Of a stretch of 35,845 bases of DNA, positions 1 to 35,796 are shown in pieces. The stretch is from the IMG/VR virus record IMGVR_UViG_3300028590_000709, positions 1-35,845 of that record; one strand, written 5' to 3'. Every line of letters starts with the position of its first letter. Position 1 is the stretch's first letter. The DNA is from a virus. The notes below the pieces were generated by a model. That model was not told where the DNA came from and searched no databases. It saw only the letters and a list, made by a program, of their open reading frames with translations. A program made the translations under genes and the position numbers.

Positions 1-38
1 GCCTTGATGATCGGCGGTGGCTGGTAGCGGGACGTCAT
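1..38 (-). CDS. 5' end of a probable bAvd-type DGR accessory gene (truncated by window edge)
   Basis: An ATG at 38 opens a frame that runs off the left edge after about 13 codons, reading MTSRYQPPPIIKA. The pattern of a short start followed by Y-x-P-P-I-x-K-A resembles the beginning of bAvd/four-helix-bundle accessory proteins, which help the DGR reverse transcriptase and usually lie directly after a variable-protein gene. Here it begins 26 bp after the stop of a DUF1566 variable gene, exactly where the accessory gene would be expected. No strong ribosome site is visible. Thirteen residues are too few for certainty; it could be another small phage gene. Confidence 0.4.
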   Translation of the reverse strand, partial: MTSRYQPPPIIK

Positions 39-74
39 CGGTCAGATCAGGTCAAAGGGGCCAATTACTGACCG
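39..74. repeat. Inverted repeat at the 3' end of VR1
   Basis: CGGTCAG at 39-45 and CTGACCG at 68-74 form a perfect 7-bp inverted repeat (8 bp counting the flanking T-A pair) with a 22-nt loop, straddling the stop codon of the VR1 gene. The same pair occurs at VR3. In the Bordetella phage DGR a hairpin just past the variable repeat helps target recognition, so a similar role is possible. The loop here is much longer. Confidence 0.5.
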
Positions 75-490
75 ACGCGGCGCACGGCCAACGCGAACCC
101 GTCGTTGCCGCGGCGGCCGTCGCCGACGCCGCCGAGGCCGAAGGAGACGAACCACGCGGACGCCGAGGACCAGGCGGCCGGCGTCTTGCTCCAGTACCAG
201 TCGTTCTGGATGTCGCGGAAGAACGCGGTGTCGATGGCCGGGTTGTAGCGCTCCCGATCGACCAGCAGCTGCAGTTCGTCGATGGTGGGCAGGTCCCAAT
301 CGGTCGCGCCGAGCAGGTCCAGCGCCACGGCCTGCGCTTGCAGAGACTCCTGGTCGGTCTCTTCCTCGTTGATCTGGGTGGCGGTGAAGATCAGGCCGTG
401 CTCGGGCAGCTTCACGGCGACCCATTCGGTCGCATCGGCGGGCAGTTCCTGGCCATCGGCGGCCAGCTTGATCATGGTGGGCTTTTTCAT
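65..490 (-). CDS. DUF1566/Lcl-domain variable protein 1 (DGR target, VR1)
   Basis: This 141-residue protein has the DUF1566 signature: LPTIDEL near residues 68-74, a PAID motif at 84-87, and WYWS at 98-101. Its last 36 residues (106-141) are a DGR variable repeat, with conserved AWSSASAW, a variable block, and the invariant end GFALAVRRVGQ. Proteins of this type have a C-type-lectin-like fold that displays variable residues for ligand binding. I start it at ATG 490 because AGGAG lies 8 bases upstream; an upstream in-frame start at 526 lacks this. It is the last variable gene before the putative accessory gene. There is no signal peptide or fused tail-fibre domain, so the location of the protein is unknown. 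The variable block here is Gly-rich, unlike the Tyr-rich blocks of the other two copies. Confidence 0.88.
   Translation of the reverse strand: MKKPTMIKLAADGQELPADATEWVAVKLPEHGLIFTATQINEEETDQESLQAQAVALDLLGATDWDLPTIDELQLLVDRERYNPAIDTAFFRDIQNDWYWSKTPAAWSSASAWFVSFGLGGVGDGRRGNDGFALAVRRVGQ
68..175 (-). repeat. DGR variable repeat VR1
   Basis: This 108-bp C-terminal coding repeat comprises 24 constant bp (GCC TGG TCC TCG and so on), 17 codons that all end in C, and 33 constant bp ending GTC GGT CAG. Compared with VR2 and VR3, 12 of the 17 middle codons differ, always at codon positions 1 or 2. That is the signature of templated AAC codons being randomised at adenines. Confidence 0.88.
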
Positions 491-526
491 GGTGTGTGCT
501 CCTGGATGGAAGGGCAAAGGGGCCAA

Positions 527-1135
527 CTACTGACCGACGCGGCGCACGGCCAACGCGAACCCGTCGCCGTAGCGGGGGTCGCTGGAGACGTAGCCGTAGT
601 AGAAGCTGACGACCCACGCGGACGCCGAGGACCAGGCGCAGGGGGTGCTGGTCCAATGCCAGCGCGGCTTCACGCGCGGGAAGAGGTTGGTGTCGATGGC
701 AGGCTCGTGGCGGGTGTCATCGATCAGGCCAGCGAGTTCGCCGCGGGTGGGCAAGCGCCAGTCGTCGTAATTCAGCAGGCGCAGCTCGCGGCACCTGGTC
801 GCGCAGTTCTCCTGGGAGATGCCGTCGTCCGAGTCGGAGCGTGCGCCCAGCGACTCGACGGACCACATCAGGCCGGTGTGGTGATCGATCACCGCGACGT
901 GGCTGTCGCGCGGATCTTCGGCGGATACTTCTGTGCCGTCGGCGAGGACCTTGCTGAAGCGCGTGCCGGTGGCCTGCGCCTTGGCTTGGGTCACCGCCTC
1001 GTTTACGAGTTCAGCGACGGCGTTGCGGTCGATGTTTACCCTCAGCGGGGCCACGACCGTGCGGCCGGCGTTGGCTTCGGGCTGCGGGTGCAGGTTGAGC
1101 GTCACGTGCTCGGCGTGAATGGTGATGTTGTCCAT
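527..1135 (-). CDS. DUF1566/Lcl-domain variable protein 2 (DGR target, VR2)
   Basis: This 202-residue protein is the largest of the three DGR targets. The N-terminal 75 residues are not shared with the others. The DUF1566 part follows with AVIDHHTGLMW near 81-91, DWRLPTRGEL at 125-134, PAID at 145-148, and WHWTS at 159-163. Residues 167-202 are the variable repeat, rich in Tyr, Ser and Asp. The start at ATG 1135 has GAGGT 8 bases upstream. A longer open frame extends to 1348, but it runs through the neighbouring gene in another frame. Two cysteines near 111-115 and one at 166 could matter for folding. Variable lectin-fold proteins of this kind bind diverse ligands; the ligand is unknown here. 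Confidence 0.88.
   Translation of the reverse strand: MDNITIHAEHVTLNLHPQPEANAGRTVVAPLRVNIDRNAVAELVNEAVTQAKAQATGTRFSKVLADGTEVSAEDPRDSHVAVIDHHTGLMWSVESLGARSDSDDGISQENCATRCRELRLLNYDDWRLPTRGELAGLIDDTRHEPAIDTNLFPRVKPRWHWTSTPCAWSSASAWVVSFYYGYVSSDPRYGDGFALAVRRVGQ
530..637 (-). repeat. DGR variable repeat VR2
   Basis: This 108-bp repeat is aligned without gaps to VR1 and VR3. Its constant flanks are identical to theirs. All 17 middle codons end in C, including TAC, AGC, GAC, CCC, TCC and GGC. The shared sequence continues weakly about 17 bp past the stop codon, but those positions differ without an adenine bias, which marks the end of the mutagenised zone. Confidence 0.88.
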
Positions 1136-1145
1136 GGCGTAGACC

Positions 1146-1373
1146 TCAGTGGCGCCGATCGGTCGGCGTGATGGCGTGCTGGGGCATGGCGCGATCCGGG
1201 ATCGGCTTGCCCTGGTCGGCGAGCTGCGTCTCCAACACCTCGATGTACTGCTGGTCGGCACGCCACTGCTTTTCAAGGCGCTCGAAGTGGTTGGCGTCGA
1301 TGGGCAGGCCTTTGCCTTCGGCGGCGTTCGCAAGCGCGCCGAGGGCATCGGGTCCGGTCAGTTCTTTGGGCAT
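1146..1373 (-). CDS. Small phage protein, unknown function
   Basis: This is a 75-residue acidic/amphipathic protein with no recognised domain. Residues 28-55 (HFERLEKQWRADQQYIEVLE) look like a short helix or coiled coil. The ATG at 1373 has a GGAG 8 bases upstream. The gene lies between the VR2 gene (10-bp gap) and the next upstream gene, with which it overlaps by 16 bp, so it belongs to the leftward operon. No function can be assigned from sequence. Confidence 0.7.
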   Translation of the reverse strand: MPKELTGPDALGALANAAEGKGLPIDANHFERLEKQWRADQQYIEVLETQLADQGKPIPDRAMPQHAITPTDRRH

Positions 1374-1546
1374 TCGGCTTCTCCAGGCGGTGGTTGGTCC
1401 TTCGCCAGGTGCAGCTGGATGCGTTCCAGCAGCAGGCGAGGGCAGTGGTGGTCGGGTAGGTCGTGGAAGACGCGCTCGGCGTCTCGCAGCAGCTGGTTGG
1501 CACGCCTCAGTTGCTTGCCCAGGCGCGGGGCGGATGGCGTGGTCAT
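1358..1546 (-). CDS. Small phage protein, unknown function
   Basis: This is a 62-residue protein beginning MTTPSAPRLGKQLRRANQ, basic at its N-terminus and mostly helical. The start at ATG 1546 forms an ATGA overlap with the stop of the upstream gene, the usual coupling in this operon. A longer frame upstream to 1801 is the shadow of the neighbour. No family is recognised, and the coupling suggests its level follows that of its neighbours. Confidence 0.65.
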   Translation of the reverse strand: MTTPSAPRLGKQLRRANQLLRDAERVFHDLPDHHCPRLLLERIQLHLAKDQPPPGEAECPKN

Positions 1547-1782
1547 TCCTCTTCGTCGGACAGCCGCCGTCGCTTGCGTTCGAGGTTCTGCCGCTTGATC
1601 AGCAGCAACTTGGCGCGCTCGATGGCCTTCATCGATTTGCCCTCGCGGATGGGCGTGTTGCCGAGCACCTCGATGGTGTTGCCCTTCTTCTTGAGAAAGC
1701 GCTGTAGATCGCCGGCGATCGCGTCGCTCTCGGCCTGTTTCTGGCGGCTGCGGGGCGGCAGGATCACGGCCGCCTCCCGCAT
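1543..1782 (-). CDS. Small basic phage protein, unknown function
   Basis: This 79-residue protein is rich in Lys and Arg, with a central segment DLQRFLKKKGNTIEVL and a charged helical C-terminus ending SDEEE. The start is uncertain. ATG 1782 is preferred over a TTG at 1848, although neither has a clear ribosome site, so translation may be coupled to the upstream gene, which overlaps it by 19 bp. Its basic character would suit nucleic-acid binding, but no motif supports that directly. Confidence 0.6.
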   Translation of the reverse strand: MREAAVILPPRSRQKQAESDAIAGDLQRFLKKKGNTIEVLGNTPIREGKSMKAIERAKLLLIKRQNLERKRRRLSDEEE

Positions 1783-2012
1783 AAGTGTCGACCCGTGGCA
1801 TCTAGCCGTGGTGTGATGCCGCCCATTGCGGTCGAGAGGTATTGGCAACCCGTTGCCTGATCGACGTGCAGCCCAAGTCCGGATCGCTCGCGTGCGTCAT
1901 GGTTGTCGGTTTCGTCGAAGCCGATTCGCAACCACGAAAACAGCGCGCTGAGCAGGAAGTAGACAGCTACGCACCAGAAGAGGTCGCGCTTGAGCTCCTG
2001 ATACGCGCTCAC
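1764..2012 (-). CDS. Membrane-anchored DUF6440-like protein
   Basis: This 82-residue protein has one membrane segment at about residues 10-26 (LFWCVAVYFLLSALFSWL). It is followed by a soluble part with LHVDQATGCQYL and GGITPRLDATG, a pattern I recognise from DUF6440-type proteins (V-D-x-x-T-G-x-x-Y-L, then G-G-x-T-P-x-L-D). It starts at GTG 2012, with GAGGTG upstream and a GTGA overlap with the preceding stop. The role is unknown. The DUF assignment rests on motif memory only. Confidence 0.65.
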   Translation of the reverse strand: MSAYQELKRDLFWCVAVYFLLSALFSWLRIGFDETDNHDARERSGLGLHVDQATGCQYLSTAMGGITPRLDATGRHLCGRRP

Positions 2013-2569
2013 GGTGACACCTCGCTTGCGCTTCGCTGGGGGCACTCCGGGTACGCGCACGGCGCCCCGTCGCTCTGCGTGCAGCCCGGGTGAGAACAGG
2101 CGCCGCGGTCGAGGAGGTCGATGACACTCAGTCCACCGCAGATGTCGAGCAGCATCATCGCCATGTTGGCCACGTCAGCGGCGTACTCGCGAATGCCGGG
2201 ACCGTTGTCGTCACGGACAGCCTTCTGGAGCTTGGCCAAGTGGTAGTAGATTTCGAGAAGCGCGAACTCGGGAGACATCGTCAGCCACCCTTGGCGGTCG
2301 CCTTTCCCCGCGTTCGCATGCAGCTCGCTCTCCATGGCTCGGAGGAAGGGTCGAAGCACATCGGCGTACTTTCCTGTCAGCGGTCCCGGGGTCGCGGTGG
2401 CAACCAGTGCGCGCAGCTCGACGCCACGCAGGCGCATGAAGTCCAAGAGCTCAACGCCGAACTGCGTGGCGGCCTGCTCGTCGTACTGCTCCTTCTGAAA
2501 CAACAAGCGGCCCTGGGCTGCGAGCAGGTGATCCAACTGCTGAAGGATTTCGCTGGCACCGGCGATCAC
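2009..2569 (-). CDS. MazG-like nucleotide pyrophosphohydrolase-type phage protein
   Basis: This 186-residue protein has a C-terminal half containing an all-alpha NTP-pyrophosphatase-like pattern: FALLEIYYHLAKLQKAV, then REYAADVANMAMMLLDICG, with the E/D-A-D-x-A-N-x-A-M-M arrangement common in phage MazG-like proteins. These hydrolyse (d)NTPs to monophosphates and may adjust nucleotide pools or blunt stress signalling. The last 35 residues hold four cysteines (CSHPGC, CAYPEC), a possible metal site. The GTG start at 2569 overlaps the previous stop as GTGA. Only part of the metal-binding set is visible, so enzymatic activity is not certain. Confidence 0.65.
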   Translation of the reverse strand: MIAGASEILQQLDHLLAAQGRLLFQKEQYDEQAATQFGVELLDFMRLRGVELRALVATATPGPLTGKYADVLRPFLRAMESELHANAGKGDRQGWLTMSPEFALLEIYYHLAKLQKAVRDDNGPGIREYAADVANMAMMLLDICGGLSVIDLLDRGACSHPGCTQSDGAPCAYPECPQRSASEVSP

Positions 2570-2847
2570 TTCGCACCCGCCTGTTCCAGCTCCTGCGCAC
2601 TCCGCACGCCGGCCTCGGTCAGCGTGATGCGAGTGGGAAATTCGGGTTCGTCGAACGTGACCAGGCCGGCATCGAGCAGGCGGTTGACCGTGCGGCGGGT
2701 GAAGGCTTGGAACAGCTTGGGGCCGCTGTGGCGCACGGTGGACGTGCCCAGGGCGACGTAGCCGCCGCAGGCGCGCTGCAGCGTGTGGCTGGGGGTGGCG
2801 ATGGCTGCGAGCAGGGCGTCGCGCATCTTGGGCTGCAACTCGGGCAT
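2566..2847 (-). CDS. Possible winged-helix protein of the leftward operon
   Basis: This is a 93-residue protein. The stretch TRRTVNRLLDAGLVTFDEPE followed by ITLTEAGVRSAQELE looks like the recognition helix, turn and wing of a small winged-helix fold (L-L-D-x-G-L-V then L-T-x-A-G). DNA binding is therefore possible but unproven. It starts at ATG 2847, 1 bp from the upstream gene's stop. Its position in the operon gives no further hint of a target. Confidence 0.65.
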   Translation of the reverse strand: MPELQPKMRDALLAAIATPSHTLQRACGGYVALGTSTVRHSGPKLFQAFTRRTVNRLLDAGLVTFDEPEFPTRITLTEAGVRSAQELEQAGAK

Positions 2848-2848
2848 G

Positions 2849-3016
2849 TCAGCTCCAGCGGCCGCCGGCGGCGGCCAGGGTGAGGACGATCAGGGTGGCC
2901 AGCAGCAGCCACCCGATGACGCCGGCCGCGCGCAGGCGCATGCGGGTGGGCGGGGTGAAGTCGGGCGTGGTGTGCTGGATGCTCTCCAGTGCGCCCAGGA
3001 ACGGCGTGCGCTTCAT
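2849..3016 (-). CDS. Small single-pass membrane protein
   Basis: This is a 55-residue protein with a basic N-terminal half and one hydrophobic segment near residues 31-49 (AGVIGWLLLATLIVLTLAA). It starts at ATG 3016, which overlaps the upstream stop as ATGA. It is one of several tiny membrane proteins in this operon (see 1764-2012, 3013-3312 and 3500-3586). It could act at the envelope during infection, but no family is recognised. Confidence 0.65.
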   Translation of the reverse strand: MKRTPFLGALESIQHTTPDFTPPTRMRLRAAGVIGWLLLATLIVLTLAAAGGRWS

Positions 3017-3312
3017 GCGACACCTGCCTGCAGGGCGGCGTGCACATCCTGAATCTCGGCGTCGCAGGCGTCGCGCACGCTCAGCCACAGGCGCTTGCGG
3101 TCTTCGTCGCGCACCAGGCGCAAGCGCTTGAGGTTGTCGAGCGATGCCTGGTGGGCGATGGCTACGGCGTCGGCGCGCTGCTGCAGGGTGATGCTGTGGT
3201 CGTCGGCGCGGGCCTCGGCGTCGGTCAGCTCGCGATCGTGGCGGCGGGTCACCAATACGACGAGCAGGAGGTGCAGCGCGACGACGGTCGCGGCAAGGAT
3301 GACGGTGGTCAT
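3013..3312 (-). CDS. Signal-anchored coiled-coil protein
   Basis: This 99-residue protein begins with a hydrophobic anchor (MTTVILAATVVALHLLLVVLV) and continues as a charged helix likely to form a coiled coil (residues about 25-90). The topology resembles inner-membrane spanins, but a spanin pair is already present at 18926-19665, and no lipoprotein partner is embedded here. ATG 3312 overlaps the upstream stop as ATGA. Function unknown. Confidence 0.65.
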   Translation of the reverse strand: MTTVILAATVVALHLLLVVLVTRRHDRELTDAEARADDHSITLQQRADAVAIAHQASLDNLKRLRLVRDEDRKRLWLSVRDACDAEIQDVHAALQAGVA

Positions 3313-3503
3313 GCGTGACTCCTGGGTGCGAGGGCCCACCAGCTGCTGGGCTCGATGTCGCGGTTGCCTTTGACGATGCGCACGCCGATGCAGGCCGAGC
3401 ACGGGTGGTGGTCGCAGGCGCTGTGGTCCTGCAGATGCAGGAAGGGCGGCAGGGCGGCGTTGGGCACGTCGCGGCGGCGGTCGAAGGCGGGGGCTTCGTT
3501 CAT
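3309..3503 (-). CDS. Small Cys/His-containing protein
   Basis: This is a 64-residue protein with HSACDHHPCSACIG near its middle, a cluster of three Cys and three His that could bind a metal. It starts at ATG 3503 and ends in an ATGA overlap with the next gene. No full domain is recognised. Many short phage proteins with such clusters are zinc-binding inhibitors or adaptors, but that is only an analogy. Confidence 0.6.
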   Translation of the reverse strand: MNEAPAFDRRRDVPNAALPPFLHLQDHSACDHHPCSACIGVRIVKGNRDIEPSSWWALAPRSHA

Positions 3504-3586
3504 GCGCGCGGCCGCCGTGTGAGGCAGGCTTCGGCGATCAGCAGGCCGATCACCAGCAGCATGCAGAGCAGTGTCGGCGCGCTCAC
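3500..3586 (-). CDS. 28-residue membrane microprotein
   Basis: This frame of 28 codons starts at GTG 3586 (GTGA overlap with the upstream stop) and ends in an ATGA overlap with the downstream start. Almost the whole chain is hydrophobic (LLCMLLVIGLLIAEACL), followed by TRRPRA. The tight coupling at both ends is the main support for it being real. It would be a single-pass membrane peptide with a basic C-terminus. Confidence 0.5.
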   Translation of the reverse strand: MSAPTLLCMLLVIGLLIAEACLTRRPRA

Positions 3587-3816
3587 TGGATGCCTCCCAG
3601 CGCTTGGCGCATGCAGGCCATGTCGGCGTTCGTGGCCATGTCGGTGCATGAGGAAGCCACGAAGAACCCGCGTTCCTCCAACCGCCTGGCGGCTGCGACG
3701 AGATCGGCCACCGCTTTTGCGGCACTCGCCAGCGCCCATGCCTGCGAACCTTCCGGCGCGGCCGCATCAGCGCCGGCACGCTCCAGGACCGCTGCGATAT
3801 CGACGCGCGTCATCAC
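3583..3816 (-). CDS. Small alanine-rich protein, unknown function
   Basis: This is a 77-residue helical protein with an Ala-rich middle (ALASAAKAVADLVAAARRLE) and a Cys- and Met-containing end. The GTG start at 3816 overlaps the preceding stop as GTGA; an ATG follows at 3813. It is similar in size to neighbours in this operon, and no family is recognised. Confidence 0.6.
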   Translation of the reverse strand: MMTRVDIAAVLERAGADAAAPEGSQAWALASAAKAVADLVAAARRLEERGFFVASSCTDMATNADMACMRQALGGIQ

Positions 3817-4013
3817 TTGGCCACCCCACGCGATTCCTTCATGGCCGCGATCCAGCGGTAAGCGGTCGCGCGCGACATGCCAAAGTGGTCACGCAGCTGC
3901 GCGACGGACGGGATGGCACTGGGGAACGCGGCTGAGATCCGAAAGGCCATCTGCGCAGTCCGATGGGCACTGCTATGAGCGCTCGGCTGGTGGTTTCGAT
4001 AGTCGGTCCTCAT
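3813..4013 (-). CDS. Small helix-turn-helix protein
   Basis: This is a 66-residue protein. Its C-terminal half contains a helix-turn-helix, VAQLRDHFGMSRATAYRWIAA, with the typical alternation Q-L-x-x-x-F-G-M-S-R-A-T-A-Y-R-W. This pattern is found in small excisionase- or MarR/GntR-like DNA-binding phage proteins. It starts at ATG 4013, and its end overlaps the next gene as GTGA. Its target is unknown; it may regulate the leftward operon. Confidence 0.65.
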   Translation of the reverse strand: MRTDYRNHQPSAHSSAHRTAQMAFRISAAFPSAIPSVAQLRDHFGMSRATAYRWIAAMKESRGVAK

Positions 4014-4210
4014 GCCGCACCGCCTTGTGCCCGCTCGGCCTGCCTGCGCAGCAGTCGGATGTGGCTGGCCACGTAGTTGCCTGTGCGGCCGTGCTGGTTC
4101 TCGGAGATCACCAGGCGCGTGGCGTCGCGGCGCAGGTTGGGCAGGCCAGCGCGGTCCAGCTCGCTGTGGGCGCGGCGCACGGCTTCCAGGTCGATCGCGA
4201 AGGCAGCCAT
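4010..4210 (-). CDS. Small phage protein, unknown function
   Basis: This is a 66-residue basic protein with no recognised motif, apart from two predicted helices (LEAVRRAHSELDRAG and VASHIRLLRRQAERA). ATG 4210 overlaps the stop of the upstream gene as ATGA, and its own stop overlaps the next start. It is part of the leftward operon. Confidence 0.6.
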   Translation of the reverse strand: MAAFAIDLEAVRRAHSELDRAGLPNLRRDATRLVISENQHGRTGNYVASHIRLLRRQAERAQGGAA

Positions 4211-4428
4211 CAGCGTGCCTCCCTGGCCAGTTCGCGAGCGCGGACTTCTTCGCGCTCGCTGCGGACGTGCAGGCGCGGCACGTGCCGGCGGTTGTGGCCC
4301 GCGCGCAGCTGTTCGGCGTGTGCGTGGTCGTGGTTGCTGCAGCTGCGCAGGCAGCGCGCAGCGGCGTGCGGAAGCGGGACCAGCGTGTCGGTTTGCTGGT
4401 CGTCGGACGGCGTATGGGCGTCGAACAT
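4210..4428 (-). CDS. Small His/Cys-rich protein, unknown function
   Basis: This is a 72-residue protein with nine His and two Cys spread through the chain, and a charged, Arg-rich C-terminus. It starts at ATG 4428, with a GGAG 8 bases upstream that lies just beside the VR3 inverted repeat. A longer frame to 4578 is the shadow of the VR3 gene. It is the second gene of the leftward operon. No family is recognised. Confidence 0.6.
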   Translation of the reverse strand: MFDAHTPSDDQQTDTLVPLPHAAARCLRSCSNHDHAHAEQLRAGHNRRHVPRLHVRSEREEVRARELAREAR

Positions 4429-4439
4429 GGCAGCGTCTC

Positions 4440-4473
4440 CGGTCAGGTAGGCAAAGAGGCCGATTACTGACCG
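4440..4473. repeat. Inverted repeat at the 3' end of VR3
   Basis: CGGTCAG (4440-4446) and CTGACCG (4467-4473) form a perfect inverted repeat with a 20-nt loop, placed exactly like the one at VR1. It includes the last codons of the VR3 gene, its stop, and part of the leader of the next gene. VR2 lacks the outer arm. Confidence 0.5.
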
Positions 4474-4868
4474 ACGCGGCGCACGGCCAACGCGAACCCG
4501 TGGTAGTCGCGGCGGCCGTAGTTGACGTAGCCGTAGTTGAAGTCGACGTACCACGCGGACGCCGAGGACCAGGCGCACAGGTCGCTGGTCCAGAACCAGC
4601 CGCCCTTGATGTCGGGGAAGGTGTGGGTGTCGATGGCCGGGTCGAACTTGGTGATGTCGACCAGCGTCAGCAGCTCGGCGCTGGTAGGCAGGCGGAAGCC
4701 ACCGCCGTCGTGCTCGACTGCGGCGCAGGCGTCGATGGCCTGCTGGTGTTCATAGCGGCCGGCCAGCGGCGTGCGCAGCCACTCCAGGCCGGTGGTCGTG
4801 TCGACGACGGTCAGGCTGGTGGCGGCGTCGCCGGTGGGGTAGGTGAAGCGGGCTTCGGCATTGGACAT
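4464..4868 (-). CDS. DUF1566/Lcl-domain variable protein 3 (DGR target, VR3)
   Basis: This 134-residue protein is almost entirely a DUF1566 domain: VVDTTTGLEWL at 21-31, GFRLPTSAELLTLVD at 57-71, PAID at 77-80, and WFWTS at 91-95. Its variable repeat (residues 99-134) is the most Tyr/Asn-rich and therefore probably closest to the unmutated template. It is the first gene after the strong leftward promoter, with GGAGA 6 bases before ATG 4868. It stands 3.3 kb from the other two targets, so it would be a remote target of the same DGR. No signal peptide or tail-fibre fusion is visible. Confidence 0.88.
   Translation of the reverse strand: MSNAEARFTYPTGDAATSLTVVDTTTGLEWLRTPLAGRYEHQQAIDACAAVEHDGGGFRLPTSAELLTLVDITKFDPAIDTHTFPDIKGGWFWTSDLCAWSSASAWYVDFNYGYVNYGRRDYHGFALAVRRVGQ
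4467..4574 (-). repeat. DGR variable repeat VR3
   Basis: The 108-bp repeat has constant ends identical to VR1 and VR2. The variable codons include three AAC or CAC and several TAC and GAC, all ending in C. It keeps more adenines than VR1 and so may have undergone fewer rounds of retrohoming. Confidence 0.88.
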
Positions 4869-4924
4869 GGCGCTCTCCGGATGAAGGGAGGGCGCCGGCG
4901 GGTCAGTGCTGGGGCCGAGGGGTG

Positions 4925-5000
4925 CGGCCTTTCAGCGGCCGGAAGGGGGTCCGGCAGGGTGGCGACCCGCCGGTCGCCCGCCAGCTGGTGGGCTGGCGGG
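4925..5000 (-). promoter_or_regulatory. Structured leader of the PL transcript (two abutting hairpins plus a third)
   Basis: The predicted PL transcript begins near 4998 and immediately contains a 9-bp hairpin (CCCGCCAGC 4977-4985 with GCTGGCGGG 4992-5000). The next is a 7-bp hairpin (GGCGACC 4961-4967 with GGTCGCC 4972-4978), and further on a 5-bp hairpin (4925-4941). None is followed by a U-run, so they are not ordinary terminators. Two abutting stem-loops at the very 5' end recall the put antitermination RNAs of phage HK022. Confidence 0.4.
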
Positions 5001-5004
5001 ACGG

Positions 5005-5034
5005 ACGATAAGACGCCTTAGCGTTACATGTCAA
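5005..5034 (-). promoter_or_regulatory. Leftward early promoter PL
   Basis: On the minus strand a perfect TTGACA (5029-5034) is followed after 18 bp by TATCGT (5005-5010), which matches four of six consensus -10 bases. It points at the VR3 gene and the whole leftward operon. Two operators overlap it. Confidence 0.65.
5009..5022. promoter_or_regulatory. Operator OL1
   Basis: TAAGACGCCTTAGC lies between the -35 and -10 of PL. It matches 13 of 14 bases of the operator at 5945-5958. It fits the consensus nAAG-4N-CTT, so it is probably bound by the repressor dimer. Confidence 0.6.
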
Positions 5035-5045
5035 GAGGGCTTAGC
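5032..5045. promoter_or_regulatory. Operator OL2
   Basis: CAAGAGGGCTTAGC overlaps the PL -35 element. It matches 11 of 14 bases with the site at 5923-5936 and lies 23 bp centre-to-centre from OL1, about two helical turns. Confidence 0.55.
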
Positions 5046-5057
5046 ATTTGCCCGCAG

Positions 5058-5417
5058 TTAGCGCGCGGCGGGCGTATCCGGCGGGTCGCATCCCTCCTGG
5101 ACGCACTGCTCCAAAGTGACAAAGTGGTCGTGCAAACGCTCGACCAGCTCGTCGTCGAGCGAGGAGATGCTGGCCGCGTCGTGGTTGTCCAGGAATCGCT
5201 GGATTTCCCGCGTCCAGCCGTACCAGATCGCAATGCGATTGACATTGCGAACTCGTCGAGCGCGCGGAGAGGTGTCGTGATCGGGGAGCGGGTCGTTCTC
5301 CGCGAACGCCTGGTAGCGGCGCCAAGCATCCGTCTCTTCAACAGAAGGCGCCACGGTGGTTTGAGGCACGGCTTCGCTCAGCAGTTGCCGAAGGCGACTG
5401 ACCTTCTCACGCGACAT
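5058..5417 (-). CDS. Protein encoded downstream of the repressor, unknown function
   Basis: This is a 119-residue, acidic, mostly helical protein without a recognised domain. It starts at ATG 5417, with a purine-rich GGGGA about 6 bases upstream, 21 bp after the repressor stop. It is therefore likely co-expressed with the repressor in the lysogen. Such lysogen-expressed partners can be superinfection-exclusion or defence proteins, but nothing in the sequence shows that here. No terminator separates it from PL. Confidence 0.7.
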   Translation of the reverse strand: MSREKVSRLRQLLSEAVPQTTVAPSVEETDAWRRYQAFAENDPLPDHDTSPRARRVRNVNRIAIWYGWTREIQRFLDNHDAASISSLDDELVERLHDHFVTLEQCVQEGCDPPDTPAAR

Positions 5418-5438
5418 GGACTTCCCCTTTGGTGGCGC

Positions 5439-5894
5439 TTACGCCGCCGCTGCTTGGACGAAGCGCAGCACCTTCGCCCGTTGCATTCCCTCGATGAGCA
5501 GATCGTGTGCGAGAAGCGTGACTTCTGCTCGTTTTGCGGGTGGCAACTGCAGTCCTCGCTCGTCAAGGACTTCCGCTACCAGCTGGAAAGCGACTGTCCA
5601 TTCTTCGAGTTGCACCGGTTGAGATTGATATGACGCCTGCGGCTCGGCGATCGACCTGGCGTCCGCAGTCCATGGTTCGGGCTGGCCGGTAAGCAACTGA
5701 TGACCGCTTAGGTCCACGGCGTTAGCGATCGCGAACAACTGCGCTGCCTTGACGTGATCCGGCAGAACGCGGTCGTGCATGTAGTTCCCGACCGTCTCGG
5801 GGGAAGTTCCCGCCCTGCGGGCCAGTTCGGCCTGAATGAGACCCTTCCGCTCCATGGCGGACCTCAGGCGGCTTCCTATGGTGGGCTTCGTCAT
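5439..5894 (-). CDS. Prophage repressor (HTH, CI-like)
   Basis: This is a 151-residue protein with an N-terminal XRE-type helix-turn-helix: IGSRLRSAMERKGLIQAELA at 6-25, then RAGTSPETVGNYM at 27-39. The C-terminal half is helical and lacks the Ser/Lys dyad of S24 self-cleaving repressors, so induction must use another route, such as an antirepressor. It is divergent from the Cro-like gene, with three operators between the two starts, and two more lie at the leftward promoter. The site at 5898-5911 lies directly against its own start, suggesting autoregulation. Confidence 0.85.
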   Translation of the reverse strand: MTKPTIGSRLRSAMERKGLIQAELARRAGTSPETVGNYMHDRVLPDHVKAAQLFAIANAVDLSGHQLLTGQPEPWTADARSIAEPQASYQSQPVQLEEWTVAFQLVAEVLDERGLQLPPAKRAEVTLLAHDLLIEGMQRAKVLRFVQAAAA

Positions 5895-5897
5895 AGT

Positions 5898-5911
5898 AAA
5901 GCCAGCTTAGC
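5898..5911. promoter_or_regulatory. Operator OR3
   Basis: AAAGCCAGCTTAGC fits the nAAG-4N-CTTAGC pattern and ends four bases from the repressor start codon, a position suited to autorepression. Confidence 0.5.
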
Positions 5912-5922
5912 GACTGCCGTGC

Positions 5923-5936
5923 CAAGCGGGCTTGAC
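5923..5936. promoter_or_regulatory. Operator OR2
   Basis: CAAGCGGGCTTGAC contains a perfect inverted repeat (CAAGC-GG-GCTTG) and overlaps the -35 of the rightward promoter. It is similar to OL2. Confidence 0.55.
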
Positions 5937-5960
5937 GTTGAAGCTAAGACGACTTAGCCT
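5932..5960 (+). promoter_or_regulatory. Rightward early promoter PR
   Basis: TTGACG (5932-5937), a 17-bp spacer, and TAGCCT (5955-5960) form a plausible promoter. The start point would be near 5967, only a few bases before the Cro-like start codon at 5970, so the first gene may be read from an almost leaderless message. Confidence 0.5.
5945..5958. promoter_or_regulatory. Operator OR1
   Basis: TAAGACGACTTAGC is the core of the perfect palindrome GCTAAG-ACGA-CTTAGC (5943-5958). It sits over the -10 region of the rightward promoter and matches OL1 at 13 of 14 bases. Confidence 0.6.
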
Positions 5961-5969
5961 CCACGTCCC

Positions 5970-6176
5970 ATGAGCCAGCTGACAAAGAAATTCGTTCGCG
6001 AACGCCTGGGCCTGGAGAGCGACGCTGCCCTGGCCAGGATGTTCAACGTGTCCCGGGCAGCGGTGGCGCAGTGGGGCGAGGACGACCCACTGCCTGAGCC
6101 AAGGCGGACGTGGCTGCACCTCCACATGGCAGACAAATTTCCGCTGGGGCAGACCGCCGAACGGGAGGCCCGCTGA
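5970..6176 (+). CDS. Cro-like HTH regulator
   Basis: This is a 68-residue protein with a helix-turn-helix near residues 17-36 (ESDAALARMFNVSRAAVAQW), of the Cro/YdaS type. It is the first gene of the rightward operon, divergent from the repressor, which is the classical Cro position. It should compete for the same operators and favour lytic growth. No ribosome site precedes the ATG, which fits translation from a leaderless transcript. The assignment rests on motif and position. Confidence 0.8.
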   Translation: MSQLTKKFVRERLGLESDAALARMFNVSRAAVAQWGEDDPLPEPRRTWLHLHMADKFPLGQTAEREAR

Positions 6177-6177
6177 C

Positions 6178-6522
6178 ATGCCGCGTGCCCGTCGCAATCT
6201 CTCGCAATCCGAAATTCTCTCCATGGTCCTGAGCACCAGCGACGCCCAGCGCCTACGCGGTGAGTGGCCGGAAGACCGGCGGCGGGATTCAGTCTCGTCC
6301 ACGGCGATGTTCCTGTGGTTGGCCCTTGCCCTGACCCTGCTGGCCTTGGCCGGTACGTTTGTGTGGGAGGCCGTGCGCTGGGCCGAACAGGACTGCGATG
6401 ACGGCGCCGGGTCCGGTGCGCGTGTGGAATGCGCGCAACGCGGTAAACACGAAGCGCGTGGGGAAGGGAAGGATGTTGGGCATGGCGCGAAGTCTGCTGT
6501 GCCTGCTGGGGGTAGCGCATGA
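6178..6522 (+). CDS. Small early membrane protein, unknown function
   Basis: This is a 114-residue protein with one membrane segment near residues 43-64 (AMFLWLALALTLLALAGTFVWE), a basic N-terminus on the likely cytoplasmic side, and a long hydrophilic tail. Its start is 1 bp after the Cro-like stop, and its end overlaps the next gene as ATGA. Early rightward genes in this position often encode CII-like or host-takeover proteins, but no DNA-binding motif is seen. Confidence 0.65.
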   Translation: MPRARRNLSQSEILSMVLSTSDAQRLRGEWPEDRRRDSVSSTAMFLWLALALTLLALAGTFVWEAVRWAEQDCDDGAGSGARVECAQRGKHEARGEGKDVGHGAKSAVPAGGSA

Positions 6523-7085
6523 AGCCCGCGCGTCAGTTCCTGCCCCCGCGCCAGTCCGTTGTCTACGGACATACGCGTCGCATGCTCGACCAGACCGCGA
6601 CCAACTATCAGTCCTTCGCCATGGCGTTGGCTGACAGCTATCTGAGCAGCGTGGCGCCGGACGTGCGCGGCGTGCCATTCCGCCTTGGCGATGACCCGTC
6701 CGCCGACATGAAGCACAACGCGCAGATCCTGCGCCGCTATCTCGATGGCACGGTCAAAGCGCTGCCGGCAGACCTGGAAGACGCGTGGGTGATGGCATTG
6801 CCGGAGCCCTATCGCGGTGAGTGCGAACGGGACCTGTCGCGGCGACGTGGCCTGTTGGTCGTGCATCAACTTCAGACCGACGAGGCGGGGGAGGCGGTGG
6901 GGCTTGCGCGGCTGCTGTTGGAGTTCGGGCAGTTCGTCGAGGCCCTTGGCCCCGCGCTCGCAGATGGCCGTATCAGTGAAGCCGACGCGCAGTTCGCGCG
7001 CCGCATCCTCAACGAATCCGACGACCTGATCAGCGCCGTGCTGAGCGTGCGGCGACAGGTGCAGAACATCCTTCCGGGGGCATAG
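6519..7085 (+). CDS. Early phage protein, unknown function
   Basis: This is a 188-residue helical protein without a recognised domain. It includes LEDAWVMALPEPYRGECERDL in the middle and a regular acidic helix near the C-terminus. ATG 6519 overlaps the previous stop, so it is translationally coupled. Conserved-looking early genes of this size lie before the primase in many temperate phages. DNA-binding or regulatory roles are common but cannot be shown here. Confidence 0.7.
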   Translation: MKPARQFLPPRQSVVYGHTRRMLDQTATNYQSFAMALADSYLSSVAPDVRGVPFRLGDDPSADMKHNAQILRRYLDGTVKALPADLEDAWVMALPEPYRGECERDLSRRRGLLVVHQLQTDEAGEAVGLARLLLEFGQFVEALGPALADGRISEADAQFARRILNESDDLISAVLSVRRQVQNILPGA

Positions 7086-7089
7086 ACGC

Positions 7090-7302
7090 ATGGACAGGGG
7101 GAGTCACTACCGCCCGCTTCTGCCGGGCTTGCCGAATGCACGCCGCTGTGCGCCTGGACTGCTGGCTGCGATGGCGGCGCTGTATGACGACGCCCATGCA
7201 CTGACCCACGAGCAAGCCATCGCCGAGTACGACCGCATTGCGATGGAGGACGACGCGCGTCGATCGGTGCAGCGGGCGCTGCCGCTGCGGGGTGGTGAGT
7301 GA
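7090..7302 (+). CDS. Small early protein, unknown function
   Basis: This 70-residue protein contains LLAAMAALYDDAHALTHEQAIAEYDRIA-type helices (residues 24-51). It starts at ATG 7090, 4 bp after the preceding stop. It is the last clear gene before the 195-bp structured region ahead of the primase. No family is recognised. Confidence 0.6.
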   Translation: MDRGSHYRPLLPGLPNARRCAPGLLAAMAALYDDAHALTHEQAIAEYDRIAMEDDARRSVQRALPLRGGE

Positions 7303-7372
7303 CGTTGCATTGCCCGTCGATTCCCCGGCCCCCTCGGCGTGAGAGCGGAATGCGCGCGTCGACGCACGGCAA

Positions 7373-7497
7373 TTCAGTAACCCTTGACGCGCGGTCGAAC
7401 CTGAACGGGTCCGGGCATGGGTCCTCCCTGGAGGGTGCCCACGCGGGTTATCGGACGCGCGATATCGGGGTAGTTAGCGGGGTCGTCGGTTACTGAA
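7373..7497 (+). promoter_or_regulatory. Candidate structured RNA leader of the primase gene
   Basis: TTCAGTAACC (7373-7382) is a perfect inverted copy of GGTTACTGAA (7488-7497), which ends directly before the primase ATG. The pairing is extended by GACG (7386-7389) with CGTC (7484-7487). An inner hairpin (GGGCA 7413-7417 with TGCCC 7436-7440, and CCTCC with GGAGG inside it) lies between them. The closing stem would cover the translation-initiation region, which lacks a strong ribosome site. A frame at 7299-7496 spans this segment but is not convincing as a gene. Confidence 0.45.
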
Positions 7498-9903
7498 ATG
7501 GCAGTCAACTACGACGACGTCCTCGAGCAACTGCGCGGCTTCGGCCTGCTGATCGACCACCTGGATACCAGCGGGCGCATGATCCGCGTGCGCACCGAAG
7601 GCGGCGGTCGCGAGAAGCGTGGCTGGTACACGCTCCACGAATTCGCACCGCCGGGCGGCGACGTGCTGATCGTCGGTACGTACGGCATCTGGCACGCGAA
7701 CGACAACGGCGCGCAGAAGGTGGAGCTGCGGAAGCGCGATCGCGAGTTCACCGATGAGCAGCGCGCCGCCCTGACGAAGCGTCTTCGCGAGGATCGCGAG
7801 CGCGCCCGGGCTGAAGAGCGCCGCCGGCACGAAGCCGCCGCCCGCCACGCCCGCACAATGTGGTCGCGCCTGGTCGTCGACGGCGAGGCCGAGTACCTGA
7901 AACGCAAGGGCGTGCGTGGCCACGGCCTGCGCTACTCGCCGAAGGGTGCGGCCGTGGTGCCGGTGCTCGATGCCGGCGGCGGCATGCACGGCCTGCAACT
8001 GCTGCGCACGAAGCAGGAAGCCGCCGAGCAGCAGAAGCCCGAGAAGGAATTCTGGCCGGCCGGCCTGGCGAAGAAGGGCCACTTCCACCTGATCGGCTCG
8101 CCCGACTGGCTGATCCTGGTGGCCGAGGGTTACGCCACCGGCGCCACCCTGTACGAGGCCACCACCTATCCCGTCGCCGTCGTATTCGACGCCGGCAACA
8201 TCGACGGGGTCTGCGCCGCGCTGCGCAAGCAGTACCCACGCGCGCGGCTGCTGATCTGCGCCGACGACGACATCCTGGCGCGGCACAAGAAGTGCGGCAC
8301 GCGCTTCATCCTGGACGATCACCCGGCCACCTGCCCGGAGTGTGGCGAGGAGCATCGGCTCACCAACGCCGGCGTGGCCGCCGCGTCGGCCGCGGCGCTG
8401 GCGCACAATGGCGCTTGGCTTCTGCCCAGGTTCGAGGACGAAGCTGCGCGCCGCGACAAGTTCCTCGAGCGTGGCCACAAGGTCAACGACTTCAACGACC
8501 TCTACCAAGCCGAAGGCTTGCACGTGGTCCGTACGCAGGTCGAAGCCCGCCTCACGGATCTAGCGTGGGGCCGGCCCCAGGCGCCGCGCGTCTCCATCAC
8601 CACCGGGGGCGCGGGGGACGCGCCGTTGCGCCCGGTCGAATCGAGTCAGGAACTTCTGTCGCGGTTCTCGCTGGTGGCCGGGCAGGGCGGCACGGTGTTC
8701 GACCGCCAGGAGCATTGCCTGATGTCGCTGTCGGACATGCGCGACATGTGCCTGCGGAAAGACGTGCACCGCGACTGGCAGGAATCGCCCAGGCGCCGCA
8801 TCGTGCGCGTGCGCGAAGTCGGCTTCGACCCGGCCGGCGACGACCCCAACATCACCTGCAACCTCTGGGCTGGCTGGCCCACCACGCCCCGACCAGGCAA
8901 CTGCGAAAAACTGCTGCAGCTGCTGTGGCACATGTGCAGCGCCGATCGCAACGCGACGGAGCTATACCACTGGGTGCTGAAGTGGGTGGCCTATCCAGTC
9001 CAGCACCCAGGCGCCAAGATGAAAACCACTCTGGTGCTACATGGTCCGCAGGGCACTGGCAAGAACATGTTCTTCGAGGCGCTGATGGGGATCTATGGCC
9101 AGTACGGCCGGATCATCGACCAGTCCGCAATCGAGGACCGCTTCAACGACTGGGCCAGCCGCAAGCTGTTCCTGATCGCCGACGAGGTGATCGCGCGCTC
9201 GGATCTGTACCACGTCAAGAACAAGCTCAAGGCCTTCATTACGGGCGAGTGGATCCGCATCAACCCGAAGAACATGGCGGCGTACGACGAGCGGAATCAC
9301 GTGAACATCGTGTTCCTCTCGAACGAGGCAATGCCGGTCGTGCTTGAGGAGGATGATCGCCGGCACGCCGTGATTTGGACGCCGGAAAAGCTGTCGGCCG
9401 AGTTCTACCGCGCCGTGCTGCAGGAGCTGGCCGACGGCGGCGTGGCCGCGCTGCACAACCACCTCCTGTCACTGGACCTGGGCGACTTCGGGCCCGGCAC
9501 GCTGCCGCCGCACACCGAGGCGCGCGACGAGCTGATCAGCCTGGGACTGGATACGCCGCTGCGGTTCTTCGACGAGCTGTACGGGCAGGAGATCCACAGC
9601 ATCAAGCCAAGACCCGGCCTGACCGAGGACTGGTACGAGGTCTACAAGGTCTGGTGCCACCGCGCCGGCACGCGCGCCGCGCCGTCATCGAAGTTCGTCA
9701 ATGCGCTAGTGCGCAAGCGAGGAGTGGCCCCACCGAAGAGCAACCGCAAGCGCTACTACGTCAACCAGGAGCAGCGCGGCCCCCATTCGTTCCTGATGCT
9801 GGGACTGACGGCGCCGGAGGATGGCAGCAGCGAGCCCATCTGGTTCGGCGAGCAGGCGGTGCAGGTCCGCGCGGACCTCAACGCCTATAAGGGGGCCGCA
9901 TGA
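7498..9903 (+). CDS. Primase-helicase (toprim plus SF3/D5-like ATPase)
   Basis: This 801-residue replication protein has an N-terminal part with a toprim domain: LILVAEGYATGATL near 204-217, and LLICADDD near 250-258. Next is a zinc-knuckle-like CG...CPECG segment near 265-283, then a C-terminal helicase of the D5/VirE-like type. The Walker A motif is GPQGTGKN (about 514-521) and the Walker B-like motif is LFLIADEV (about 557-564), followed by an FLSNE sensor. It would synthesise primers and unwind DNA for phage replication. It starts right after a long inverted repeat that may control translation. An iteron array, perhaps its origin, follows at once. Confidence 0.9.
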   Translation: MAVNYDDVLEQLRGFGLLIDHLDTSGRMIRVRTEGGGREKRGWYTLHEFAPPGGDVLIVGTYGIWHANDNGAQKVELRKRDREFTDEQRAALTKRLREDRERARAEERRRHEAAARHARTMWSRLVVDGEAEYLKRKGVRGHGLRYSPKGAAVVPVLDAGGGMHGLQLLRTKQEAAEQQKPEKEFWPAGLAKKGHFHLIGSPDWLILVAEGYATGATLYEATTYPVAVVFDAGNIDGVCAALRKQYPRARLLICADDDILARHKKCGTRFILDDHPATCPECGEEHRLTNAGVAAASAAALAHNGAWLLPRFEDEAARRDKFLERGHKVNDFNDLYQAEGLHVVRTQVEARLTDLAWGRPQAPRVSITTGGAGDAPLRPVESSQELLSRFSLVAGQGGTVFDRQEHCLMSLSDMRDMCLRKDVHRDWQESPRRRIVRVREVGFDPAGDDPNITCNLWAGWPTTPRPGNCEKLLQLLWHMCSADRNATELYHWVLKWVAYPVQHPGAKMKTTLVLHGPQGTGKNMFFEALMGIYGQYGRIIDQSAIEDRFNDWASRKLFLIADEVIARSDLYHVKNKLKAFITGEWIRINPKNMAAYDERNHVNIVFLSNEAMPVVLEEDDRRHAVIWTPEKLSAEFYRAVLQELADGGVAALHNHLLSLDLGDFGPGTLPPHTEARDELISLGLDTPLRFFDELYGQEIHSIKPRPGLTEDWYEVYKVWCHRAGTRAAPSSKFVNALVRKRGVAPPKSNRKRYYVNQEQRGPHSFLMLGLTAPEDGSSEPIWFGEQAVQVRADLNAYKGAA

Positions 9904-35719: not shown

Positions 35720-35760
35720 TGGCGCCCGAAGTTGGACTCGAACCAACGACCCCCTGATTA
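35720..35760. other. Putative prophage attachment site (attR or attL) in the tRNA 3' half
   Basis: This is inferred because prophage-type genes end next to the tRNA 3' half with arm-like repeats beside it. A second copy of this sequence should exist left of the window. The exact core cannot be drawn from one copy. Confidence 0.35.
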
Positions 35761-35796
35761 ACAGTCAAGTGCTCTAACCGGCTGAGCTATTCGGGC
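35720..35796 (-). tRNA. tRNA-Asn (GTT)
   Basis: The 77-base cloverleaf has acceptor arms GCCCGAA and TTCGGGC, and the anticodon loop CTGTTAA with anticodon GTT. It also has a normal T arm (GGTTCGAGTCC) and an encoded CCA end. The 3' part of tRNA genes is a common phage attachment site; the element lies on the 3' side, as expected for integration there. Confidence 0.95.

Follow-up and report, generated by a model that had tools for sequence, protein, structure and literature searches.

The window analysed here is the whole 35,845-nucleotide stretch of IMG/VR record IMGVR_UViG_3300028590_000709 (G000), which carries towards its left end three genes, A, B and C, encoding small proteins of the Pfam family PF07603 (Lcl_C, formerly DUF1566), each ending in a 108-bp repeat (VR), as well as a putative regulatory region, with the following features:

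1 to 38, minus strand: 5' end of avd (MTSRYQPPPIIK...), an accessory gene of a diversity-generating retroelement (DGR) cut after 12 codons by the record edge, identified by alignment to the beginning of avd in L004, L005 and L009
65 to 490, minus strand: target gene A, Lcl_C protein of 141 aa (PF07603; ORF 65-526, likely ATG at 490)
68 to 175, minus strand: VR of A, variable core 98-151 (repeat alignment)
527 to 1135, minus strand: target gene B, Lcl_C protein of 202 aa (PF07603; ORF 527-1348, likely ATG at 1135, also from relatives)
530 to 637, minus strand: VR of B, variable core 560-613 (repeat alignment)
1136 to 4463, minus strand: small genes separating B from C, on the same strand and collinear with L004
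4464 to 4868, minus strand: target gene C, Lcl_C protein of 134 aa (PF07603; AlphaFold C-type lectin fold)
4467 to 4574, minus strand: VR of C, variable core 4497-4550 (repeat alignment)
4869 to 5000, minus strand: conserved structured leader before C (predicted fold, conservation)
5005 to 5034, minus strand: promoter-like site before C (TTGACA, 18 nt, TATCGT; consensus match)
5009 to 5020, no strand assigned: probable operator TAAGACGCCTTA within the C promoter-like site (palindrome)
5439 to 5894, minus strand: repressor-like HTH gene (PHROGs and Pfam)
5945 to 5956, no strand assigned: second probable operator copy, upstream of the repressor gene (palindrome)

The three proteins match PF07603 with E-values of 1.7e-18 (A), 5.1e-24 (B) and 7e-23 (C), i.e. 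67.4, 85.2 and 81.6 bits against a curated Pfam gathering cut-off of 34.9, and the A protein is 85% identical to its counterpart in L004, the closest relative. As is typical of DGR targets, the VRs sit at the 3' ends of genes for proteins with a C-type lectin fold, which was modelled by AlphaFold for A (pLDDT 93) and C (pLDDT 92). The best solved match is the C-terminal domain of Lcl from Legionella (PDB 8q4e), followed by C-type lectins, with a Foldseek E-value of 5.6e-4 for A and, for C, a VIA-align Z of 13.7 and an rmsd of 4.0 over 116 residues. Lcl, an extracellular collagen-like adhesin (PMC11162425), thus belongs to the same Pfam family and provides the closest solved fold, but the identity is about 20% in structural alignment and it is not known to us as a DGR target.

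The repeat copies of the three genes agree fully over their first 24 bp and last 33 bp, and the 17 codons in the middle end in C in all 51 instances; 12 of these 17 codons vary between copies, with changes at codon positions 1 and 2 only. In the 43 codons directly before the repeats of the same genes, the third base is altered in 22 of 34 variable codons, and drawing 12 codons free of third-base changes from that pool has a p-value of ~7e-5 (hypergeometric, hand count). Because these upstream codons often change their third base, the codon pattern of the VRs is not that of ordinary divergence. The first-pass annotation of this DNA, which had described three aligned 108-bp repeats with 12 variable NNC codons devoid of third-base changes and had considered them hard to explain by ordinary divergence, was exact in the former respect and well founded in the latter.

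Neither a template (TR) nor a reverse transcriptase (RT) was found in the window's own 35.8-kb record, the latter stopping ahead of the position where the RT is expected. In L004, the TR starts some 521 bp past the stop codon of A and the window therefore falls ~457 bp short of the expected TR. On the reading of these sequences, TR and RT would be missing only because the record stops before that point. Avd is an accessory protein that many but not all DGRs possess; the window carries the first 12 codons of avd only, and the Avd protein of L004 matches bAvd weakly (E 4.3e-5) and does not reach the Pfam cut-off. An exact search in IMG/VR with the left edge of the window retrieved no contig extending leftward; L057, the only near-identical contig, is identical over 11.9 kb, with A and B outside its reach and the same VR in C.

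Relatives were sought in overlapping scans, namely by C (3 bacterial and 17 viral loci), by A (25 viral loci) and by the RT (80 loci). The RT was present in 26 of the 28 first-found related records and, in relatives of the same locus, it lies beside the TR; that of L004 exhibits the motifs IGNLSSQ and YVDD, the former fitting the DGR RT signature GxxxSQ (PMC3521204). In 55 VRs of relatives, 815 of 818 TR/VR mismatches fall on TR adenines. The deduplicated census comprised 52 systems with TR and RT and 105 usable VRs, where substitutions were A to G (864), A to T (493) and A to C (192); the non-A differences amounted to 93 G to C, corresponding to a fixed mismatch at the repeat end, and 15 others. 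A separate count over the VR cores gave 2 non-A differences among 2294 sites. The confinement of mismatches to TR adenines that marks a DGR is thus observed in the relatives, the window VRs being tested against a predicted TR. The TR core in relatives consists of 11 AAY codons and one CAC, the second AAY codon being AAT in most TRs. Since the three window VRs all end in C at this codon, AAC is predicted there in the TR of the window phage, and the core so predicted was found exactly in L102. The three window VRs depart from it at 19, 15 and 11 of its 23 adenines, all other positions of the 54-nt core being unchanged, and the window codon CGC/CCC/CGC derives from the template CAC. One VR was detected in 8 systems, two in 35, three in 8 and four in 1, these counts being lower bounds as detection is limited by the flanks. 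The search for a template and an RT suggested at first pass could hence be carried out on relatives, where both are present at the same locus and uphold the DGR reading, the window record itself ending too early. The proposal that all 12 variable codons stem from AAC gives way to 11 AAY and one CAC, the adenine-directed origin being retained, and the view of three targets as exceptional was rejected, considering that 44 of 52 systems show at least two and that a DGR with six VRs is published (see below). Besides, a Lysobacteraceae MAG contig (L003:10001-10390) bears a C-type target with no TR in the stretch examined, RT matches being found on other contigs of that genome.

In the census, the TR/VR identity has a sharp onset, 24 nt upstream of the first AAC, and extends to +80. 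At +81, a fixed mismatch opposes G in the TR to C in 99% of the VRs with a standard core, and the window VRs also carry C. Such an IMH/IMH* difference at the 3' end of VR and TR is a hallmark of DGRs and matches the distinction known from BPP-1 (PMC3240598, PMC4372165). The VR flanks show 0.095 differences per 42 nt from the TR of their own phage vs. 2.75 from the TRs of other phages, and two VRs within one phage are as far apart (14.9 of 23 A sites) as VRs of different phages (14.8); therefore, each target is rewritten separately from the local template.

The window almost certainly carries the target side of a phage DGR, whose TR and RT would lie immediately outside the record. The RT would make a cDNA from a TR transcript, introducing errors at adenines, and this cDNA would replace approximately the last 105 bp of each of the three separate Lcl_C genes, each being rewritten independently; the TR of the relatives, with AAC at the second AAY, and their RT would be shared by the window phage just past the record edge. 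The notion that the three lectin genes are paralogs driven apart by ordinary mutation and diversifying selection, their flanks being kept alike by gene conversion with no retroelement at work, is hardly credible: the paralogy of A, B and C is real and codon use in the VRs does show selection, but the changes occur only where the TR of relatives has an A, third-base changes are absent, and RT, avd and TR are located at the same place in relatives. At the family level, the TR comparison reads as a refutation of it. As its own record is without TR or RT, we infer, rather than observe, the activity of the window's copy, and a DGR that made these VRs and then died here through loss of RT or TR would leave them as relics. 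This second scenario, which would accommodate the lack of both elements in the record as well as the identical VR in C of L057, appears improbable in view of VR flanks still identical among the three genes, intact reading frames and an avd start intact at the record edge.

Returning to the DGR reading, the two variable bases of AAY codons in the 52-system census are not independent (chi2 745, 9 df). Cys (10 seen vs. 107 expected), Arg (2 vs. 46) and Ile (1 vs. 38) are depleted, Leu is enriched (101 vs. 19), with Tyr, Ser and Gly also in excess, and amino-acid use is similar among A, B and C. These statistics most likely reflect selection on a binding surface of the proteins; alternatively, the skew could arise from neighbouring-base effects on the enzyme or from the pooling of codon positions with differing preferences. 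As the family provides dozens of natural replicates of one template rewriting up to four genes, it lends itself to measuring the selection that acts on the rewritten proteins.

Regarding the target site, a GC-rich hairpin or cruciform after the VR was proposed as a conserved requirement by Guo et al. (PMC3240598) and considered as needed in a subset of DGRs by Schillinger et al. (PMC3521204). No hairpin follows the three VRs of the window and, in the 105 VRs, the longest stem is 5 bp, below shuffles. The same script recovered stems of 8 bp in BPP-1, of 7 in VP58.5 and phiARM81mr, and of 8 and 9 in LPPA56, where they are more distant from the VR; it found no post-VR hairpin in Burkholderia phage Magia and Shewanella phage vB_Sb_QDWS. 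In the hairpin's place, past the stop codon, a conserved non-coding motif is present in the window and its relatives, i.e. ~TAATTGGCCTTTTTGATC in B and C type targets and ~TGATTTGATTTTCTGCTGAG in A type targets. The absence of the hairpin tests the generality of the target-site rule drawn from BPP-1. In addition, all 52 systems (L004:10926-12287 and 51 other loci) have the TR in frame inside the RT ORF, and an ATG precedes the first AAC by 20 to 30 codons. Over 17 distinct segments upstream of the TR, one of which is indel-shifted, changes at the first, second and third codon positions number 16, 14 and 43, respectively, and the TR may be translated as the N-terminus of the RT. A class of TRs that overlap the RT ORF has already been published (PMC3521204).

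Taken together, the window and L004 give the order C ... B - A - avd - [TR within RT ORF] - small HTH (xis-like) - integrase. The targets and the repressor in the window, then avd, RT and integrase in L004, are on one strand, with primase, terminase and tail genes on the opposite one, and the other systems display the same arrangement wherever these markers were detected. The repressor gene in the window and the integrase in L004 support the initial designation as a prophage. Near the right record end, a tRNA-Asn(gtt) (35720-35796, minus strand) could be phage-borne or belong to host DNA at an attachment site.

Only one promoter-like match was found in positions 1-7600, the one before C, vs. 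0.8 expected by chance, and TTGACA is located upstream of C in L004 too. The window contains two copies of the palindrome TAAGNCGNCTTA, one 5' of the repressor gene and one inside the C promoter-like site, two chance matches being obtained in 2 of 100 shuffles with one mismatch allowed. Of 21 loci, 8 have a palindrome within 300 bp before C that is encountered again further upstream, vs. 2.4% of control positions; this test used 5-base arms and the window, whose operator arms at C are 4 bases long, lies outside these 8. The recurring palindromes of relatives would adjoin the repressor, to judge by spacing alone. The operon is probably inducible, since the promoter-like site of the first target carries the probable operator of the repressor: the phage repressor would probably shut the target operon in the lysogen and release it at induction, and strand and gene order suggest that the transcript from the C promoter extends over B, A, avd and RT. 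Regulation is the weakest step of the explanation, promoter and operator being consensus matches. If true, prophage induction and the targets of hypermutation would be linked through the repressor-controlled promoter of the first target. Further upstream, the minus-strand ORF 5907-7091 was rejected as a gene, having no PHROGs match and lying opposite conserved plus-strand ORFs.

The leader of 132 nt between the promoter-like site and C has a strong predicted fold (z -6.3) and its conservation extends to at least 17 further phage sequences. Among them are Stenotrophomonas phage S1 and L158, in which a different gene, and not an Lcl_C gene, comes after it. Some covariation is apparent (changes on both sides in 9 cells vs. 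2.6 expected), most of it in the first helix. It has no match in Rfam and a search in plasmids retrieved nothing; our guess is that it is a put-like antitermination leader.

As for function, the rewritten lectin surface would bind varying ligands. A role of the A, B and C proteins as receptor-binding parts of the virion, like Mtd of BPP-1, is plausible, though we lean slightly towards the alternative of an early, non-virion role; the DGR reading is unaffected either way. The C-type lectin fold, Foldseek matches including phage tail-fibre and virion proteins, and the fact that receptor-binding proteins are the main DGR targets in phages (PMC10743442) argue for such a role. The targets are nonetheless single small domains with no evident signal peptide or membrane segment in a crude hydropathy test, and they lie between repressor and integrase, opposite in strand to the replication, packaging and tail genes; mtd, by contrast, sits among tail genes. 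More tentatively, and as a rather unlikely whole, these systems would form a large clade of temperate-phage DGRs with hairpin-free homing, the TR inside its own RT coding sequence and expression switched on by induction, diversifying two to four free-standing early lectins with a role other than tail receptor binding, e.g. the intracellular binding of varying proteins from the host or from rival phages.

Multi-target DUF1566 DGRs are already known and the window adds another; considering the open-access literature, the hairpin-free and repressor-linked setting may be a describable subtype. The DGR of Stenotrophomonas sp. SKA14 has two TRs and six VRs, five of the latter in DUF1566 proteins (Yan et al., 2019; PMC6642488). 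It likewise is a single DGR locus with several separate, mostly DUF1566 targets, in a host genus shared with some relatives here, but, compared by description, it differs from the one TR and three VRs considered here. BPP-1 (mtd, avd, TR, brt) shares the order target - avd - TR - RT, adenine mutagenesis, a C-type lectin target and an IMH-like end mismatch, whereas it has one target among tail genes instead of three near repressor and integrase, a TR annotated outside the RT ORF instead of inside, as in the relatives, and an 8-bp hairpin after the VR, where none is found here. Magia and vB_Sb_QDWS also lack the hairpin, have RTs with ~40% identity and exhibit two small targets, then avd, RT and integrase on one strand; their target proteins are different, C having no tblastn match in the phage collection.
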